In this document: piece after piece, positions 2,330-29,707 of the stretch | Numbering within the stretch: position 1 is the first letter of the stretch | Layout: every line of letters begins with the position of its first letter | Virus record (IMG/VR): IMGVR_UViG_3300012210_000016 | Location: 1 to 29,707 of that record | Source of the DNA: a virus | DNA length: 29,707 nucleotides | Strand: one strand, 5' to 3' | Notes under the pieces: model-generated | What the model was told of the DNA's origin: nothing | The model's database searches: none | What the model saw: the letters and a program-made list of their open reading frames with translations, nothing else | Translations under genes and position numbers: made by a program

Positions 2330-3112
2330 ATGACTGACGTGACCGAGTCCGTCGCACATCAGTTCGACCCCGGGGATGCTCCGCCCGTGCACGAGGCGTG
2401 GCGGCGTGTCATGGCCGACGTCGTCACCATCGACAAGGGCGGGTTCAACGCCGAGTTCCGGTACAAGTTCCGTGGCGTCGACCAGGTCATCGACGCCGTC
2501 GGCCCCATCCTCCGCCAGCACGGGGTCCTGGTGCTCCCCACCCACATCCACATCGCGCACCGCGACATCTCCACCAGCGGCGGGAAACCCGCCCGCGAAT
2601 GCACCGCCATCGTCACCTACACCATCGTCGGCCCCCGCGGCGACACCCTCACGGTCATGTCCGCCGGTGAGGGCATGGACCTGCAGGACAAGGGCACCGC
2701 GAAGGCCATGTCCGTCGCGTTGCGGATCCTGTTCCTCCAGGCGCTCGTCGTCCCCACCGGTGACCCCGACCCCGATCAGGGCGGCCAGTCCCCGACCCGC
2801 GCGAACAAACGCCAGCCGAGGGCCCGCGTCGAGAAGCCGGCCCCCGAACCTGTCACCGACCCCGCGTGGCTCGCCGACATGCAGGACCGCATCGGGGAGG
2901 CGCTCAACCAGGCGAACCTGACCGAGTTGTGGGCGCAGCTGATCGCCGCGAAACGCGCGGGGAAGGTGTCCACCGTGGACGCCGCCGCCCTGCAGGTTCT
3001 GTTCGGGGAGCGCGGCAAGGCCTTCAACACCGACACCACCGACACCGACACCACCGACACCGACACCGACACCGACACCGATATCGACGCTGCCATTGAG
3101 GAGGGGACGTGA
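2330..3112 (+). CDS. erf: ERF-family single-strand DNA annealing protein
   Basis: 260 aa. Typical ERF features are YKFRGVDQVIDAVGPILRQHG near residues 44-64 and, later, GEGMDLQDKGTAKAMSVALR followed by FLQALVVPTGDPDPD. ERF proteins anneal complementary single strands during phage recombination and genome circularisation. The conserved core occupies about residues 15-150. A charged linker and a helical segment follow (about 180-235), then an unusual C-terminal Thr-Asp repeat coded by an ACCGAC hexanucleotide tract. Partner nuclease at 1310-2083. Its stop overlaps the WhiB GTG. Confidence 0.9.
   Translation: MTDVTESVAHQFDPGDAPPVHEAWRRVMADVVTIDKGGFNAEFRYKFRGVDQVIDAVGPILRQHGVLVLPTHIHIAHRDISTSGGKPARECTAIVTYTIVGPRGDTLTVMSAGEGMDLQDKGTAKAMSVALRILFLQALVVPTGDPDPDQGGQSPTRANKRQPRARVEKPAPEPVTDPAWLADMQDRIGEALNQANLTELWAQLIAAKRAGKVSTVDAAALQVLFGERGKAFNTDTTDTDTTDTDTDTDTDIDAAIEEGT
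3029..3083 (+). repeat. ACCGAC-type hexanucleotide tract in erf
   Basis: A short tandem repeat of mostly ACCGAC units with a few ACC interruptions encodes the acidic (Thr-Asp)n stretch near the ERF C-terminus. Tracts like this can change length by slippage in steps that keep the frame. Confidence 0.85.
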
Positions 3113-3504
3113 GTCAACGGAGAACCCCCACCGCCGTCGAGGTCCGCGCCGTCCTGTTCGACGACCGGTTCCGCGCCGCCTGGTCCGCTGCGGCGGACCC
3201 CGAGTGGCGTCGGAAGGCCCGCTGCCGTAGCCACGACCCGGAGATGTTCTTCCCCGACCCGAAGGGATCGTCGCTCGACGCGCTCGCGGTCTGCGGTGTC
3301 TGCCCCGTCCGGGCGGTGTGTCTCCGCGACGTGCTGCGCCGCGGTGAACGCCTCGACGGGATCTGGGGCGGCACCCGCCCCGCCGAACGAGACGCCATGC
3401 TGATCGCCTGGCCGCGTCTGCGCTCCGGCCGGTCACCCGAACCGCCGCGCGGGCGGCCACCTGCCCGCGTCACCCGCCGCTCCCGCCCCGGGCGGCGACC
3501 GTGA
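3109..3504 (+). CDS. whiB: WhiB-family iron-sulfur transcription regulator
   Basis: 131 aa, GTG start in a GTGA overlap. Four cysteines, Cys39, Cys62, Cys65 and Cys71, give the C-x22-C-x2-C-x5-C arrangement that binds a [4Fe-4S] cluster, followed by the GIWGG turn (84-88) and TRPAER. The tail is Arg/Pro rich. WhiB proteins are essentially confined to Actinomycetota and their phages, where they bind the primary sigma factor region 4 and alter promoter choice, so this supports the host assignment. In phages they may redirect host transcription. Confidence 0.92.
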   Translation: MSQRRTPTAVEVRAVLFDDRFRAAWSAAADPEWRRKARCRSHDPEMFFPDPKGSSLDALAVCGVCPVRAVCLRDVLRRGERLDGIWGGTRPAERDAMLIAWPRLRSGRSPEPPRGRPPARVTRRSRPGRRP

Positions 3505-3800
3505 CCGCCATCAGCGCAGGACAGCTCACCGTGTGGGTACTGGCCTGCGCCGTGCTCGGCGGCGGGCTGCTCCTGGCCGCGCACCTCGCCTGGTCCGAAA
3601 CCCCCGGCCGGCACCGCGGGACCCTCCGCACCGTCGACATCGCCGCGCACGCCACCCGCCCCTCACACGCCGCCCGGCTCGAGGAGGAGTTCCGCGGCAT
3701 CCTCACCGCACGCACCCTGTACGACCCGTACGGCTACCCCACCGAGTTCGGCACCCACCCCGAACCCACCCCGACCGGGAGACCCCATGACCGTCTATGA
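3501..3800 (+). CDS. Single-pass membrane protein (99 aa)
   Basis: GTG start overlapping the WhiB stop. One hydrophobic helix, about residues 8-27 (LTVWVLACAVLGGGLLLAAH), is followed by a basic then acidic region and a Pro-rich end. The topology looks like an N-terminal anchor with a soluble tail. It overlaps the next gene by 14 bases. No family is recognised and the role is unknown. Confidence 0.7.
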   Translation: MTAISAGQLTVWVLACAVLGGGLLLAAHLAWSETPGRHRGTLRTVDIAAHATRPSHAARLEEEFRGILTARTLYDPYGYPTEFGTHPEPTPTGRPHDRL

Positions 3801-4953
3801 CGTGACCGCGCTCGGCGCGGCCGGTGACGGTGTCACCGACGACTACACGGTGATCCAGTCCGCGCTCACCCTGGCCGCACCGGGCGACACCGTCGTCCTG
3901 CCCCGCAAACACCGCGTCTCGGCGCCGCTCGTCCTCGCCACCCCCAACGTCACCCTGAGGGGCGTGTGGGCGCCACGCTGGGCCTACGACACGCCGCAGT
4001 CGAACTACGTGAAACCGTTCTTCGGGTCGTTCACCGGCGACGCGGTGGTCCGGGTGGAGGCGAACGGGTGCCGTATCCAGGATCTGCTCGTCGACGGCGT
4101 CAACGCGACCGGCCCGTCCGGGGTCGCCGTCGACGGCGTCGAGATCGGCGGCGGTGTCCACGACACGCTGCTGGAGCGGGTCGGCCTGTACAACCTGACC
4201 GGTGCCGGTCTCCTGGCCCTCGAGGCCGCCGCGGTCGTCGCGGTCGACGTGTCCGCGAACACCTGCCGCGGATCGGGGGCGTTCGTCCTCGAGGTGACCG
4301 ATTCGCTGTTCACCCGTTGCCTGGCCGTGGCGAACGCAGGGTGCGGGTTCGTGCTCACGAACCCGTCGGACGTGAAACTGACTGACTGCATGTCGGTGTT
4401 CAACGACGCCCACGGGTTCCAGGCCACCGGCACCAACGGGTCTTTACAGTTCGCGAATTGCAGTACGGACCGTAACGACATGGCCGGGTTCGCGATGTTC
4501 TGCGGCGGCGCGAGTGACGCGCACGCCATCACGTTGACGGGGTGCTATGCGCGGCGTGACGTGCAGAAAGGCTTCCACGTCGGCGGGGCGGCGGGGGCGA
4601 GGCATGTGCCGGTGCTGATGTCCGCGTGCGCCACCCACGTCGCGAAGGACGACGCCGGAGGCGGCACCAACGGGCCGCTGTACGGTCTGGTCGTGGACTA
4701 CGGGCGCGCGGTGCAGCTCGCCGCCTGCTCGATGCAGGGCGCCACGCAGGGGCTGCTGGAGACCAACGGCGCCGTCACCCGCTACGGGCCCGACACGCTG
4801 TTCAACACCGGCACCGGCAGCGCGGCGGTGTGGGACACCCAGTCCGTGACCCGCTACTCCGCGCCCGGCGGGCAGGGGAAGGCGTTCGTGCAGGGCGGCG
4901 CGTACAAGTACACGGGTGCGGCCGGCACGACCAGCACGGTGGCTCCGTCATGA
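3787..4953 (+). CDS. Pectate-lyase-3-like right-handed beta-helix protein
   Basis: 388 aa. The N-terminus (YDVTALGAAGDGVTDDYTVIQ, then PGDTVVLPRKHRVSAPL) is the typical entry to the pectate_lyase_3/tailspike beta-helix fold. The rest consists of short turn-strand repeats such as DLLVDGVNATG, TDSLFTRCLAVANAGCGF and LTDCMSVFNDAHGF. Such proteins bind or cut polysaccharides and often serve as phage receptor-binding proteins or depolymerases, but no catalytic residues can be assigned here. It lies in the recombination/regulator operon rather than the tail operon, which is unusual. Leu220 (4444-4446) is encoded by TTA, a very rare codon in this window and the codon read by the tRNA at 28030-28134. 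Confidence 0.82.
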   Translation: MTVYDVTALGAAGDGVTDDYTVIQSALTLAAPGDTVVLPRKHRVSAPLVLATPNVTLRGVWAPRWAYDTPQSNYVKPFFGSFTGDAVVRVEANGCRIQDLLVDGVNATGPSGVAVDGVEIGGGVHDTLLERVGLYNLTGAGLLALEAAAVVAVDVSANTCRGSGAFVLEVTDSLFTRCLAVANAGCGFVLTNPSDVKLTDCMSVFNDAHGFQATGTNGSLQFANCSTDRNDMAGFAMFCGGASDAHAITLTGCYARRDVQKGFHVGGAAGARHVPVLMSACATHVAKDDAGGGTNGPLYGLVVDYGRAVQLAACSMQGATQGLLETNGAVTRYGPDTLFNTGTGSAAVWDTQSVTRYSAPGGQGKAFVQGGAYKYTGAAGTTSTVAPS

Positions 4954-5042
4954 CCCGCGAGGAAGCCGCGATCGTCACGGCGTACACCGGTGTCCTGTCG
5001 CTCGTCGTCGACGCTGTGCCCGGTCCGGGGGTGTCGTCGTGA
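4950..5042 (+). CDS. Very short ORF beginning MTREEAAIVTAYTGVL (30 aa)
   Basis: The ATG overlaps the preceding stop (ATGA) and its own stop overlaps the next GTG, so it is embedded in the coupled operon. The first 16 residues resemble the start of a small phage protein family with an EEAAIVTAYTG opening, whose members, as I remember them, are longer. The remainder here is short and unrelated, so this may be a decayed or minimal version. Confidence 0.5.
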   Translation: MTREEAAIVTAYTGVLSLVVDAVPGPGVSS

Positions 5043-5239
5043 AGCGGGCGGACTGGGTCCACGGTGACCTGCGCGGCAGCCGCGCCCGGCGGGCCCGCCG
5101 CAGCCAGTTGGTGGCGCTCGAGGCCGCGCTCGGCGCCTCCTACGAGGCGCTCCTGGAGGACGTCGAGGCCTACCTGGACGGGTTCCTCCCCCCGGGCTGG
5201 ATCGCCGACCTCGCCGACCTCCCCGACAGGGGGGTGTGA
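5039..5239 (+). CDS. Hypothetical protein (66 aa)
   Basis: GTG start in a GTGA overlap; stop one base before the second TetR-like gene. The N-terminal 20 residues are Arg-rich. A predicted helix (LVALEAALGASYEALLEDVEAYLDG) follows, then a hydrophobic FLPPGWIADLADLP segment. It could be a small DNA-binding or partner protein, but no family is recognised. Confidence 0.65.
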   Translation: MKRADWVHGDLRGSRARRARRSQLVALEAALGASYEALLEDVEAYLDGFLPPGWIADLADLPDRGV

Positions 5240-24339: not shown

Positions 24340-24491
24340 GGGATCTCGTACAGGGAACGCCTGGCCCGGACCCACCTACTGCGTGGCGGCTCCCCGGCCG
24401 GGGTGATGTCGACCCACATCCACTCCGGGTCGGGCTCCGGGAGGTCGTCCATGTCGAACAGGCGGCGGATGGTGTCGCCGGATCCGGTCAT
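24336..24491 (-). CDS. Small protein between terminase and portal (51 aa)
   Basis: The ATG overlaps the terminase stop (ATGA at 24488-24491), and its TGA overlaps the portal ATG (24336-24339). The sequence is acidic with Trp (EPDPEWMWVDITPAGE) and a basic end (SRWVRARRSLYEIP). No family is recognised. Perfect coupling on both sides supports translation. Confidence 0.68.
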   Translation of the reverse strand: MTGSGDTIRRLFDMDDLPEPDPEWMWVDITPAGEPPRSRWVRARRSLYEIP

Positions 24492-25831
24492 CCGATCCAC
24501 CTCACCTTGTACTCGCCCCGAAGATCACGATCAGCGACAAGATACCGCGCCGCATCACAACCATGATCGTTCTCTTTGACCGGTTCCTCTTTCTTCCCCT
24601 CGTTGTTGGCGTGTTGCTTCCACACGTAACCGGGGATCTCCTGCTCCGTGCAGGTCGGCAGACCCCGCTCGGCGAGGTCCCCGTCCCTGTCCCGGCACGC
24701 CCCCCGCACCACGTACAGCCGCGGCCGCCCGTCCCCCGCCAGACGAAGACGCTGCTGGAAAGCCGTGATGCCGTTCAGGACGTCCTTGTTCGCCGCAGTC
24801 GTGGGGATACCGACCGTGCGGGAGAACAGCTCGCGGCCGGCGGCGTCCCAGTCCGCGAGGATCTTGTCCGGCCGCGGCTCCACCCAGCGGCGGTTGCCGC
24901 GGCGGTCCTTGGGGGCGACCTCGTCGAGGACAGCCTCGGCGTGCTGGTCGGCGGTGCGTTGGGTGCGGTACGTCTCGGCGTACAGCCACAACCTGCCGTC
25001 CGGGTCCTCGGCCCAGCGTTGCACCACGGTGGGGTTGGTGAACCCGAAGTCGATGGACCAGAACCGGCGCCACTGAGCGCTGCCGGCCGGCAGGGCGTCG
25101 ACGAGGTGGACCGCAGGGTCCCACTCCTCGTAGATGGCGCCCTCCGCGGCGACCCACCGGCCGTGCCGCAGCCGCTGCAACCGCACCCCGGTCAGATTGT
25201 CCAGGCGCCCGATGTACACCGCGCCCCGCTCGGTCAACGTGCCGTCAGCGTCGAACAGCATCGGGTTGTCCTCATGCCGCGAATGCAGCATCGTCGTCAC
25301 ACCCGAATCGGCGCGCTGCTTCAACCAATGCGTCGGCGCGTCCGGGTTACAGTCCGCGAGGATCTGCTGATACGGCACCACCCCGTTACGCAACCGGGTC
25401 GTGATCGCCTCCCAGTCATCGACGACCAGCTCGGTGGCCTCCGCCACGTACACGACGTCGTACTCCGACGACATGATCTTCGTCGGCTTGTCCATGCCGC
25501 CGACGTTGATCGTCGACCCGTTCGCGTACTGGTACTGCGCCGGTTTCCGCTTGGATCCGCCGTACCAGACCACCGCCCCGGTCGCGACGAGCTCGGCGAC
25601 GACCCACTTGTCGAACGTGACCAGGCTGGTGGAGGTGAGCGACACCGAGGTCTTGCGGACGATCAGCCCGGCCGCGCCCGGGTATTTCAGCATGATCAGG
25701 TTGAGTTTCTCCAGCGCCGACCTCGATTTGCCGGTGCCGGCGGGTCCGGCGAGGAGCACTTCGTCGTCGCGGCAGGTCAGTACCGTTCGCGCGGCGCCGC
25801 GCGGGGCGTAGCGGTGGAGGAGGGTGGTCAC
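24488..25831 (-). CDS. terL: Terminase large subunit
   Basis: 447 aa from GTG 25831. ATPase: Walker A GPAGTGKS (29-36), Walker B DVVYVAEA with Glu131 (125-132), coupling motif ILADCNP (157-163). RNase-H-like nuclease: WSIDFGF with Asp261, ILADWD with Asp327, NDHGCDAARY with Asp422/Asp426. It cuts and pumps DNA into the head. It is slightly short but complete. No small subunit is recognisable upstream, where membrane and Cys/His proteins are encoded instead. Confidence 0.95.
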   Translation of the reverse strand: MTTLLHRYAPRGAARTVLTCRDDEVLLAGPAGTGKSRSALEKLNLIMLKYPGAAGLIVRKTSVSLTSTSLVTFDKWVVAELVATGAVVWYGGSKRKPAQYQYANGSTINVGGMDKPTKIMSSEYDVVYVAEATELVVDDWEAITTRLRNGVVPYQQILADCNPDAPTHWLKQRADSGVTTMLHSRHEDNPMLFDADGTLTERGAVYIGRLDNLTGVRLQRLRHGRWVAAEGAIYEEWDPAVHLVDALPAGSAQWRRFWSIDFGFTNPTVVQRWAEDPDGRLWLYAETYRTQRTADQHAEAVLDEVAPKDRRGNRRWVEPRPDKILADWDAAGRELFSRTVGIPTTAANKDVLNGITAFQQRLRLAGDGRPRLYVVRGACRDRDGDLAERGLPTCTEQEIPGYVWKQHANNEGKKEEPVKENDHGCDAARYLVADRDLRGEYKVRWIG

Positions 25832-26956: not shown

Positions 26957-27156
26957 GCCTGCCCGGCGCGTGTCTGGCGCATCAGCCGCGCGGGCTCGGA
27001 CAGCGCGGAGTCCTGCTCGGCGAGGATCGCGGCACGGGCCTCGCGCGCCGCTCGGCGCCACGGTTCCTGGAAGCCGTCAGGGATGAGGTGCCATGCCACG
27101 CATTTCGTGTCGAGATAGGTGCGGCGGATGAGGTCAGCCAGGTCGTCATCATTCAC
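26953..27156 (-). CDS. Hypothetical helical protein (67 aa)
   Basis: GTG 27156 overlaps the Excalibur gene stop. Charged helices (DDDLADLIRRTYLD, EPWRRAAREARAAILAEQDSALSEPARLMRQ) and one conserved-looking CVAWHLIPDGFQEPW. No family is recognised. Part of the coupled small-gene operon. Confidence 0.65.
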   Translation of the reverse strand: MNDDDLADLIRRTYLDTKCVAWHLIPDGFQEPWRRAAREARAAILAEQDSALSEPARLMRQTRAGQA

Positions 27157-27445
27157 AGGCGGTCCCGTCACTGTCGCGGTCCAGCCGGGTCCGATACCCC
27201 GGCTCACCCGCGTACAACGGGGCGGCGCCGGCGGCACGGGCGGCGGCACAGTCCGTGTAGTGGGTGTACCCGTCGTCGTCACCCCGCGTGTCGGCGGGCG
27301 GGGGCGTCGGCGAACCCGGTCCGGTCGTGGCCGGACCCGGGCTGCCCACTGGCGGTGTGGTGTCGTCGAGCCTGGCCACGGTGCCCGCCCCGCCGCAGCA
27401 GAACGCGGCGAACAGAACCACGGCAGCGACCGTGAGGCCCCTCAT
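27149..27445 (-). CDS. Secreted Excalibur-domain protein (98 aa)
   Basis: Signal-like N-terminus MRGLTVAAVVLFAAFCCGG, possibly lipidated at the Cys pair, then a Pro/Gly/Thr linker. The C-terminal Excalibur domain is YTDCAAARAAGAAPLYAGEP...LDRDSDGTACE. The D-x-D-x-D-G-x-A-C-E loop is the calcium-binding-like motif found in extracellular proteins, frequently attached to cell-wall or nuclease domains. Here it stands alone. Likely exported and wall-associated. Confidence 0.85.
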   Translation of the reverse strand: MRGLTVAAVVLFAAFCCGGAGTVARLDDTTPPVGSPGPATTGPGSPTPPPADTRGDDDGYTHYTDCAAARAAGAAPLYAGEPGYRTRLDRDSDGTACE

Positions 27446-27460
27446 TCGATGGCCCGCTCG

Positions 27461-27646
27461 TCAGTCACGCTCGGCCTCGTCCCACCAGCGGTGATGCGAC
27501 ACCCACCCCGGCCCATGCCCATGACGGTCATGATCACCCTCATGACCGGCCGGACGCTCACAGTGCATGACCTGCGACACCCAGTCCGTCCCGAACGTCC
27601 GCTCGTTGCCGCACGGCGGCGGCCCGGGTCTCAGGTCCGCGCTCAC
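27461..27646 (-). CDS. Small Cys/His-rich protein (61 aa, copy A)
   Basis: GTG 27646 chosen because it forms a GTGA overlap; GTG 27658 would add four residues. Contains CGNERTFGT, then HCERPAGHEGDHDRHGHG and HHRWWDEAE. The C...C-x2-P-x-GH-x4-H pattern is shared with the next gene upstream and suggests metal binding. Confidence 0.62.
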   Translation of the reverse strand: MSADLRPGPPPCGNERTFGTDWVSQVMHCERPAGHEGDHDRHGHGPGWVSHHRWWDEAERD

Positions 27647-27849
27647 GCCGGCCACCACCGGTGATCGCCGTCACGGCACTGCGGCACGTCCGGATGGATA
27701 CCGGCCGCGTGGCCGCGTGGGAGCCCACAGGTCCACGTCCGGTACGTGCCCTTCGAGGAGAGGGTGCCTCCGCTGTAGCCGGGCTGGTCCTCCCACGTGG
27801 TCGAGTTCCGGCACAGCCCGTCGTCGGGTTCGGGGGTGGTCATCCCCAT
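27643..27849 (-). CDS. Small Cys/His-rich protein (68 aa, copy B)
   Basis: ATG 27849, overlapping the upstream stop. Contains GLCRNSTTWEDQPG, TWTCGLPRGHAAGIH and CRDGDHRWW. The C-x2-P-x-GH-x4-H and HRWW elements match its neighbour at 27461-27646, so the two are probably tandem duplicates. Function unknown. Confidence 0.62.
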   Translation of the reverse strand: MGMTTPEPDDGLCRNSTTWEDQPGYSGGTLSSKGTYRTWTCGLPRGHAAGIHPDVPQCRDGDHRWWPA

Positions 27850-27989
27850 CCGTCCCTGCGCTGGTCGTCGCGCTTCTCCACGGACACACCCTTGACCGGC
27901 TTGTTCTTCTTGTCCTTCGCGACGGTCTTCTTCACCTTCGCCGCGTTCTCGTCCGCCGCGTTGTCCTTGTTGCCCTTACCCCACGCCAT
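27840..27989 (-). CDS. Lys-rich small protein (49 aa)
   Basis: ATG 27989 with GGAG upstream; stop overlapping the next gene. Mixed-charge, highly Lys-rich (KVKKTVAKDKKNKPVKG), with WGKGNKDNAADE at the start. It is probably disordered and may bind nucleic acid. First gene after the tRNA. Confidence 0.65.
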   Translation of the reverse strand: MAWGKGNKDNAADENAAKVKKTVAKDKKNKPVKGVSVEKRDDQRRDGWG

Positions 27990-28029
27990 GCGTGTCTCCG
28001 TCCGTCACGTCCACGATGAACCCTTCACG

Positions 28030-28134
28030 TCCCCCGGGTGGGACTCGAACCCACAAACCGTCCCTACTGCATGTCAGCATTCAGGACTGAATCCACTTTT
28101 AAGGTGGCTGCGTCTGCCATTCCGCCACCGGGGG
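28030..28134 (-). tRNA. tRNA-Leu (anticodon UAA)
   Basis: Perfect 7-bp acceptor (CCCCCGG / CCGGGGG), a 3-bp D stem (GCG/CGC) with TGGCGGAATGGCAGACGC, anticodon loop CTTAAAA (anticodon UAA), and T arm GTGGG-TTCGAGT-CCCAC. The discriminator base is A, as in tRNA-Leu. CCA is not encoded. The variable region is 37 bases (28055-28091), longer than normal for Leu; it can pair GTCC/GGAC with an inner TGC/GCA. The anticodon stem has one mismatch at its outer pair. It decodes UUA, extremely rare in high-GC genomes. Confidence 0.88.
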
Positions 28135-28144
28135 ATACCGCGCC

Positions 28145-28834
28145 CTACAGACCGTTCACCTTCAGCACCGACGGGATGATCGACACCCCGTACCCCGCCA
28201 GCTCCTCCTCGCTGTCGACCGTCGCCACGGTGGCGCCGTTGGCCTTCAACGCGGCGAACTGCTTCGGGGTCAGGTGCTGGAGGACACCCCCGCCGAGCGG
28301 CTTCCACACGTCGTCGCGGGACCTGAGCTTCACCAACTGCATGACGTCCTCCTGCTCGCTCGAGACCGGCCGTGCCGGCAGGGGTGGGGTGGTGGAGGGG
28401 AACCGTTCGGGCCACACCTGGCGGATGAGTGTCCACGTGCGGCCGGTGCGGTTGCCGAGGAGTTCGAGGTGCCAGTGGTAGTCCCCGGACGGGCCCTGCC
28501 GGGTGCCGTCCCAGTCGTACTGGGAGCCGTTGGTGTTGACGAAGTCGATACGGCTGGTGTCGTAGTCCGACCGCAGCACCTTGAGTACGCGGCGTTCGAC
28601 GTCGCTGTCGGGGGTGGCCATGACGTCGATGGCGGTCACCACACCGTAGGGGGCGGACGGTTTCCACGGGGTGTGGCCGCCCTGCTTCTTCAGGTGGTCC
28701 TGGTTGCCGATGCTGTACCAGGTGATGCCGAGCGCGTCGAGGTCACGGCCGCAGGACACCAACGCGGGGGCGAGGGTCCAGTCGACGCGGAGGCTGTCGC
28801 TGGGTCTGACCACGGTCCCCGAGTAGGCGCCCAT
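28145..28834 (-). CDS. M15/VanY-like zinc peptidase, possible endolysin
   Basis: 229 aa. Residues of about 40-125 carry a pattern like the M15 metallopeptidases: QGGHTPW with His54, then VTAIDV with Asp70, then DYHWHLEL with His120/His122. These would ligate zinc, although the spacing of the first motif (SxHxxGxAxD) is stretched. M15 enzymes cut peptide cross-links in peptidoglycan. The C-terminal 70 residues (MQLVKLRSRDDVWKPLGGG...LTPKQFAALKANG) form a separate unknown domain. This is the only lysin candidate in the window; it ends 10 bases before the tRNA. Confidence 0.6.
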   Translation of the reverse strand: MGAYSGTVVRPSDSLRVDWTLAPALVSCGRDLDALGITWYSIGNQDHLKKQGGHTPWKPSAPYGVVTAIDVMATPDSDVERRVLKVLRSDYDTSRIDFVNTNGSQYDWDGTRQGPSGDYHWHLELLGNRTGRTWTLIRQVWPERFPSTTPPLPARPVSSEQEDVMQLVKLRSRDDVWKPLGGGVLQHLTPKQFAALKANGATVATVDSEEELAGYGVSIIPSVLKVNGL

Positions 28835-28953
28835 CAGATTCCTTCGTCCCTGGGTCCGCTGTCGCTCATCCGTACGACGCCGCGGTAGTGGATGCCGTGG
28901 ATGTCGGAGAAGTGGGCCAGGCCGGCCGGGAACCGCTCGTCGTCGTCGCTCAT
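28834..28953 (-). CDS. Small acidic protein (39 aa)
   Basis: ATG and TGA lie in 4-base overlaps with both neighbours. The sequence is MSDDDERFPAGLAHFSDIHG followed by IHYRGVVRMSDSG. No family is recognised; supported only by coupling and a credible start. Confidence 0.55.
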   Translation of the reverse strand: MSDDDERFPAGLAHFSDIHGIHYRGVVRMSDSGPRDEGI

Positions 28954-29117
28954 CGTTTCCCCTCGCACCATTTCCGGTCCCCCGCCTTACCGTGCGGGTG
29001 CTCGGCGTGCTTGCTGCTGTTCGAACACTGCTTGACGGTGGTGTTGCCGGCGAGTGCGTCCTGGGCCTGGTCGAAGTGCTCACCGAACCCAGGCGGCTCA
29101 TGGTCGGTGCGACTCAT
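28950..29117 (-). CDS. Small Cys/His protein (55 aa)
   Basis: ATG 29117 overlaps the preceding gene by 20 bases; the stop overlaps the next ATG (ATGA). It contains EHFDQAQDALAGN (helical), then QCSNSSKHAEHPHGKAG and KWCEGKR: two Cys and three His could hold a metal. No family is recognised. Confidence 0.6.
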   Translation of the reverse strand: MSRTDHEPPGFGEHFDQAQDALAGNTTVKQCSNSSKHAEHPHGKAGDRKWCEGKR

Positions 29118-29268
29118 GCGGGCCTCCCTGCTCGGCGGCGTCGTGGTCGCGACCGGCGACGATCAGCCATTGGCCGCAGTGGCATGTGTGGGTGCGCTCC
29201 CAGTGCGCGGTGCACTGGTGCAGGCCGTCATCGTCGTCTTCGGCGTCGGTCCATACGTGTCCGCACAT
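29098..29268 (-). CDS. Zinc-ribbon-like protein (56 aa)
   Basis: ATG 29268 preceded by GGAGG. MCGHVWTDAEDDDDG followed by HQCTAHWERTHTCHCGQW gives Cys2, His4, a HxC pair, and a HTCHCG cluster, a likely zinc-binding fold common among tiny actinophage proteins. Function unknown. Confidence 0.68.
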   Translation of the reverse strand: MCGHVWTDAEDDDDGLHQCTAHWERTHTCHCGQWLIVAGRDHDAAEQGGPHESHRP

Positions 29269-29288
29269 CAGTCGTGGCCTCCGTCCGT

Positions 29289-29705
29289 TCAGGGGTTGAT
29301 GAGTCGGTGGTAGAGGTGGGTGGCGGAGTCCTGGAGGGTGTGGACGGTGGGTGCGAGTGCGGCCCCCGCGGCGGCCCGCGCGGCGTCCCGCGCGGCGGCC
29401 CGCGCGGCGCCCCCCACGGCGTCCCCCGCGGCGCCCCCCACGGCGTCCCCCGCGGCGGCCCGCGCGGCGGCCCCCACGGCGTCCCCCGCGGCGGCCCGCG
29501 CGGCGGCCCCCGCGGCGTCCCACGCGGCGGCCCACGCGGCGCCCCCCACGGCGGCCCCCGCGGCGGCCCCCGCGGCGGCCCCCACGGCGTCCGCGGCCGC
29601 ACGCGCCTCCTCCAACACCACCAACACCTCCACCGAACCCGCATCCGCACGCCCGGACACCTCACGCAACGCCACCGCGTGCGGCGCCAGCGCCGGCACC
29701 AGGTC
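29289..29705 (-). CDS. Ala-rich four-residue repeat protein, truncated paralogue
   Basis: The frame is open to the right edge, so its true start lies outside the window (first visible GTG is at 29699). The N-terminus is identical to the left paralogue. It is followed by 19 tetrapeptide units at 29364-29591 and a C-terminus LAPTVHTLQDS...LYHRLINP, similar but not identical to the left copy. The units include GAA[W/G/R] types absent from the left tract. No enzymatic motif; probably a long helix. It heads the leftward transcription in this window. Confidence 0.75.
   Translation of the reverse strand, partial: DLVPALAPHAVALREVSGRADAGSVEVLVVLEEARAAADAVGAAAGAAAGAAVGGAAWAAAWDAAGAAARAAAGDAVGAAARAAAGDAVGGAAGDAVGGAARAAARDAARAAAGAALAPTVHTLQDSATHLYHRLINP
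29364..29591 (-). repeat. 19 tandem 12-base coding units
   Basis: Read leftward, every unit fits G[A/C/G]C-GCC-G[C/T]G-[G/C/T]GG. Only the same three positions as in the left tract vary, with no synonymous change among the units. Confidence 0.95.
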
Positions 29706-29707
29706 CA
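29585..29707. repeat. Right copy of 123-base terminal inverted repeat
   Basis: Exact reverse complement of bases 1-123. It extends from the right edge through the first repeat unit of the right paralogue. Confidence 0.95.

Follow-up and report, generated by a model that had tools for sequence, protein, structure and literature searches.

Within a 29,707-nt viral contig (IMG/VR record IMGVR_UViG_3300012210_000016, positions 1 to 29,707, this whole stretch being referred to as the window), a tRNA-Leu gene with a UAA anticodon is accompanied by a single in-frame TTA codon among all called genes. In Streptomyces, the decoding of UUA serves as a developmental switch, one that mobile elements with a UUA tRNA of their own could override. 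An earlier note on this DNA had paired the tRNA with the TTA codon, surmising that the phage might thereby free one protein from host control. The locus thus raises the question of whether the tRNA is genuine, whether the lone TTA codon accounts for it and, if not, what the phage may gain from carrying it.

Results

A tRNA-Leu(UAA) gene with an enlarged variable region

The gene lies on the minus strand at 28030..28134 (105 nt), where Rfam family RF00005 gave a match of 47.8 bits (gathering threshold 29, E 7.7e-9) covering model positions 1-71, i.e. the full model. Its UAA anticodon sits within the 7-nt loop CTTAAAA; the acceptor stem (CCCCCGG/CCGGGGG) is paired at 7 of 7 positions, rendering the coordinates exact, and the T stem at 5 of 5. 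All acceptor, D and T pairs are intact, as are four pairs of the anticodon stem, which is topped by a G27-A43 mismatch, and the energy of the cloverleaf is -42.8 vs. -44.0 kcal/mol for the minimum free energy fold. A73 is present and CCA is not encoded; A73 and a D arm that we read by hand as leucine-type appear to agree with leucine identity. Based on the Rfam match, the UAA loop, the intact stems, the cloverleaf energy and covariation with relatives (see below), 28030-28134 is a real tRNA gene with a UAA anticodon, as the earlier note had called it. ARAGORN with default settings reported no tRNA at this position in the window, and its intron mode reported a tRNA-Leu(taa) there with a wrong "intron", a failure attributable to the 37 nt that separate the anticodon stem from the T stem. 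The intron that this mode proposes for the anticodon loop was rejected because the CCAC/GTGG stem, read without a gap, shows covariation with CCGC/GCGG in relatives.

These 37 nt constitute the variable region (28055..28091, minus strand), comprising a 4-nt linker, a 5-bp stem (GTCCT/GGGAC), a 3x3 internal loop, a 3-bp stem (TGC/GCA) and a 5-nt linker, with a fold of -12.2 kcal/mol that 2% of mononucleotide shuffles reached. CTTAAAA and GGTTCGA lie 45 nt apart in the window tRNA vs. 21-25 nt in 80 other viral tRNA-Leu(UAA) genes among the matches listed, making its variable region about 20 nt longer than theirs; this comparison set, picked by DNA pattern and numbering at least 80 members, provides comparisons rather than frequencies. 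The region is class II in kind, but its length falls outside that of ordinary class II variable arms, being too long. The mismatch is likewise unusual, G27-A43 occurring in 1 of 65 distinct viral tRNA-Leu(UAA) genes among the matches listed. A targeted search for long-arm versions yielded four matches, two of which (L166 and L188) looked genuine when read.

Relatives on Streptomyces mobile elements

The anticodon arm with the mismatch, GACNCAGCCNCCTTAAAAGNGGA (GCCnC-CTTAAAA-GnGGA), was present in 3 of 84,980 species genomes, all of them Streptomyces, as well as in 6 viral contigs and in plasmids of S. platensis and S. janthinus; among 393 Streptomyces genomes it was found in 2, one of which had already been counted in the three species genomes. 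The three Streptomyces host genomes also carry a normal bldA-type tRNA. Contexts that we read for the mobile-type tRNA were prophage- or plasmid-like, with methylases, WhiB, helicase and HTH genes. Judging from these sequences, the tRNA-Leu(UAA) with the mismatch is a rare, mobile type tied to Streptomyces mobile elements. In the literature that we found, there was no description of the tRNA-Leu(UAA) genes of Streptomyces mobile elements as a group.

Ten relatives of the window tRNA, from Streptomyces plasmids and prophages (L183, L189, L190 and L197-L203), have the G27-A43 mismatch in common with it, along with the anticodon-arm pattern, the D arm and the T arm. They differ in the variable region, which is approximately 5-6 nt in eight and 14-16 nt in two, vs. 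37 nt in the window tRNA and in L188. Across the window tRNA and these relatives, 99.1% of pair cells were standard and nine pairs were changed on both sides; none of 500 shuffles scored as high, and slid structures paired in 31-47% of cells. Related sequences may exceed such shuffles even where no structure exists; here, however, the slid controls and the tRNA model point the same way. The compensating stem changes show that the folded tRNA is maintained. Changes found in the window tRNA itself are compensated in three stems (acceptor, anticodon and T), an argument against a relic in decay. The same phage lineage yielded no relative carrying this tRNA, so that selection on the window copy is inferred from the wider relatives; a tRNA match of any kind was seen for 5 of 35 terminase relatives, none of which has a UUA-reading tRNA at the corresponding place.

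The likeness to known tRNAs is partial. Streptomyces bldA shares with the window tRNA the UAA anticodon, the leucine-type D loop, A73 and the codon read, being 74% identical over aligned positions, but its anticodon stem is perfect and its variable arm normal, in contrast to the G27-A43 mismatch and 37-nt region here. The tRNA-Leu of Gordonia phage GodonK (codon UUA) is likewise a phage-encoded tRNA-Leu(UAA) and is 82% identical over aligned positions; unlike the window tRNA, it displays a perfect anticodon stem (GCCGA/TCGGT) and a variable arm of normal size.

Several additional features emerged from these comparisons: 1) the eight mobile-element UAA tRNAs with variable loops of about 5-6 nt (L190, L197, L198, L199, L200, L201, L202 and L203) have no class II arm; 2) the tRNA-Leu genes of actinophages Zooman, Tomas and Phabba also measure merely 74-78 nt; 3) the Streptomyces aculeolatus genome holds two different mobile-type tRNA-Leu(UAA) genes (L207 and L210) 10 kb apart on one contig, with its bldA-type tRNA elsewhere in the genome; 4) in two Streptomyces plasmids (L189 at 2999-5235 and L190 at 58-2432), the genes after tRNA-Leu(UAA) are an HTH gene and one with a NERD domain, the latter holding TTA codons; and 5) one terminase relative (L059, 1501-1594) harbors a gene that resembles a tRNA, has an enlarged anticodon-arm region and may be a further odd phage tRNA.

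TTA use and the beta-helix gene

In-frame TTA occurs once in the 49 called genes of the window (8598 codons), at codon 220 (4444-4446) of a right-handed beta-helix/minor tail-like gene (3787..4953, plus strand; PF13229, phrog_11699), as the earlier note had counted; these counts come from a simple gene caller that treats TTA as neutral, and the few further TTAs lie solely in reading frames rejected as genes. The density is 0.12 per 1000 codons in the window, 0.09-0.10 in six tRNA-bearing Streptomyces elements (10-11 TTAs in 108,724 codons by hand sums, the doubtful one being the tRNA itself read as an ORF in L219) and 0.09 in 19 terminase relatives with a GC content of at least 66% (9 in 99,223 codons, also hand sums), nearly all of the latter being without a detected tRNA, with L025 and L053 in records that have other tRNA matches. 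TTA use is therefore the same in tRNA carriers and non-carriers, and codon compensation based on the TTA count was rejected since TTA is not enriched in carriers. We also rejected TTA depletion as a sign of avoidance: compared with 1 TTA observed, 8.4 would be expected from the A/G ratio at all third positions, but only 2.4 from the CTA and GTA boxes, NTA codons being low in general.

Nor is the codon conserved. In relatives of the beta-helix gene from six phages, the position was never TTA, with Met, Gly or Leu (CTG) instead, and a pattern scan for a close viral relative of the gene found none. As for a TTA gene common to the carriers, TTA recurred solely in the NERD genes of two plasmids, at different codons; the TTA genes of the other carriers were unrelated regulators or had no known function. 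With parity in TTA density and a non-conserved TTA leucine, the simple pairing of the tRNA with the beta-helix TTA is not supported: the tRNA and the lone TTA codon of the earlier reading were confirmed, the functional link between them was not.

TTG is used 79 times in the window, at 9.2 per 1000 codons vs. 1.4 in Streptomyces phage Dagobah and 2.6-5.2 in the tRNA-bearing Streptomyces elements, a level atypical of the Streptomyces elements compared. It is also several-fold above that of most GC-rich relatives. Smith and others are said to have dealt in 2013 with codon use in Streptomyces phages, which would be relevant here.

Phage, host and gene neighborhood

To place the phage we relied on the terminase large subunit (24488..25831, minus strand, phrog_2), whose nearest matches were Thermobifida phage P1312 (58%) and Dagobah (54%); the portal and capsid were nearest to Dagobah (41% and 38%, respectively), and the beta-helix relatives were mostly from Streptomyces phages. 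The host is likely a streptomycete or near relative, judging from these similarities. The tRNA is flanked by two minus-strand genes that lie 155 nt apart, a small lysine-rich ORF directly downstream (27840..27989) and a gene directly upstream (28145..28834) without a Pfam or PHROGs match. A promoter scan upstream of the tRNA recognized none, no integrase was seen among the annotated window genes, and the 27000-29707 stretch had no DNA match to phage records.

The contig ends (1-349 and 29359-29707) form an inverted repeat, 90% identical over 349 nt and made up of 12-bp GC-rich tandem units, and reflect either genuine terminal inverted repeats or an assembly that broke off within a repeat. With both ends consisting of this repeat, the 29.7-kb metagenomic contig is probably incomplete, and the missing genes could use TTA. 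At each end the repeats would encode an alanine-rich repeat protein.

Discussion

Our preferred reading, to which we give an even chance, is that the gene is a phage tRNA-Leu(UAA) of a rare type, its arm enlarged, and is kept as a spare reader of UUA, and perhaps UUG, rather than in answer to the demand of a single TTA codon. We surmise that it would be transcribed together with the flanking minus-strand genes, that host enzymes would add CCA and leucine, and that it may then read UUA, and possibly UUG, as a spare; the likeliest benefit would be continued translation when the host UUA tRNA is scarce or cut. Phage tRNAs standing in for cleaved host tRNAs are a documented precedent (PMC11555353, PMC10264068). 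Against this proposal, the tRNA could function less well owing to the G27-A43 mismatch and its 37-nt variable region, the same tRNA was not seen in a relative of the same lineage, and no promoter was recognized upstream.

An unlikely alternative is that the phage relies on the tRNA to translate one or more TTA genes of its own, the beta-helix gene or others beyond the contig, independently of host bldA. In Streptomyces, bldA is developmentally regulated and required for UUA (PMC4255298, PMC2000904), and a dependence of phage CW39 on bldA through its TTA genes has been proposed (PMC13350457). One TTA gene is indeed present, the carriers and the tRNA type are linked to Streptomyces, TTA could occur in genes missing from the contig, and host genes could likewise be affected by an added UUA tRNA. 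This proposal is countered by the equal TTA density of carriers and non-carriers, by the lack of conservation of the TTA leucine in beta-helix relatives and by the position of the codon, 220 of 388, which is not close to the gene start. The identity of the host matters here because control by bldA may well be limited to Streptomycineae (PMC4255298), and a Streptomyces host is putative. Escape of phage or host from bldA control is possible, resting on that putative host and on genes beyond the contig.

We rate slightly lower the proposal that the enlarged arm is itself a means of escape, the tRNA replacing a host tRNA-Leu that a defence nuclease cuts in its variable region while its own rebuilt arm stays uncut. 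The change in the variable region from approximately 5 to 37 nt among close relatives, with conservation of the remainder, is consistent with such a role, as are the reported resistance of T5 tRNA-Tyr to retron-Eco7 owing to its distinctive variable loop and the cutting of tRNA-Tyr in its variable loop by a Septu system (PMC13096335). The T5 tRNA-Tyr that evades retron-Eco7 resembles the window tRNA in its unusual variable loop and can replace the host tRNA (PMC11555353, PMC13096335), but its function has been demonstrated experimentally, for another amino acid and another host. However, our analysis identified no nuclease that cuts actinobacterial tRNA-Leu variable arms; in addition, variable arms tolerate drift, and a change in length needs no such selection on its own.

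More speculatively, Streptomyces phages and plasmids may share a mobile tRNA-Leu(UAA) whose arm has been repeatedly deleted or enlarged in response to tRNA-cutting defences, with UUA decoding outside of bldA as a side effect; we consider this doubtful. If it were true, developmental genes of the host that contain TTA could be turned on by infection or carriage. The build of the window tRNA is missed by a standard finder and its relatives include leucine tRNAs without a variable arm, so that the group may be under-annotated. Such a group would serve to probe how the variable arm is recognized by LeuRS and by tRNA-cutting defences.

It is rather improbable that the tRNA chiefly reads UUG. Bacterial tRNA-Leu(UAA) with a modified U34 can read UUG, and TTG is unusually frequent for the GC content of this phage, as evidenced by the TTG rates given above; on the other hand, actinobacterial hosts normally own a tRNA-Leu(CAA), and TTG is low in the other carriers. 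Least probable of all is a decaying or non-functional relic, for instance the remnant of a recombination site, as the rarity of the mismatch, the long variable region and the ARAGORN miss might suggest, since the stems are intact apart from that mismatch, the window-specific changes are compensated on both sides, the mismatch is common to ten relatives and the annotated genes showed no integrase.

Elsewhere, the window encodes a WhiB-like regulator (PF02467; 3109-3504) and a TetR-type protein (673-1062) beside ERF and exonuclease genes, and, near the head genes at 27149-27445, a small protein that looks secreted and has an Excalibur calcium-binding domain.
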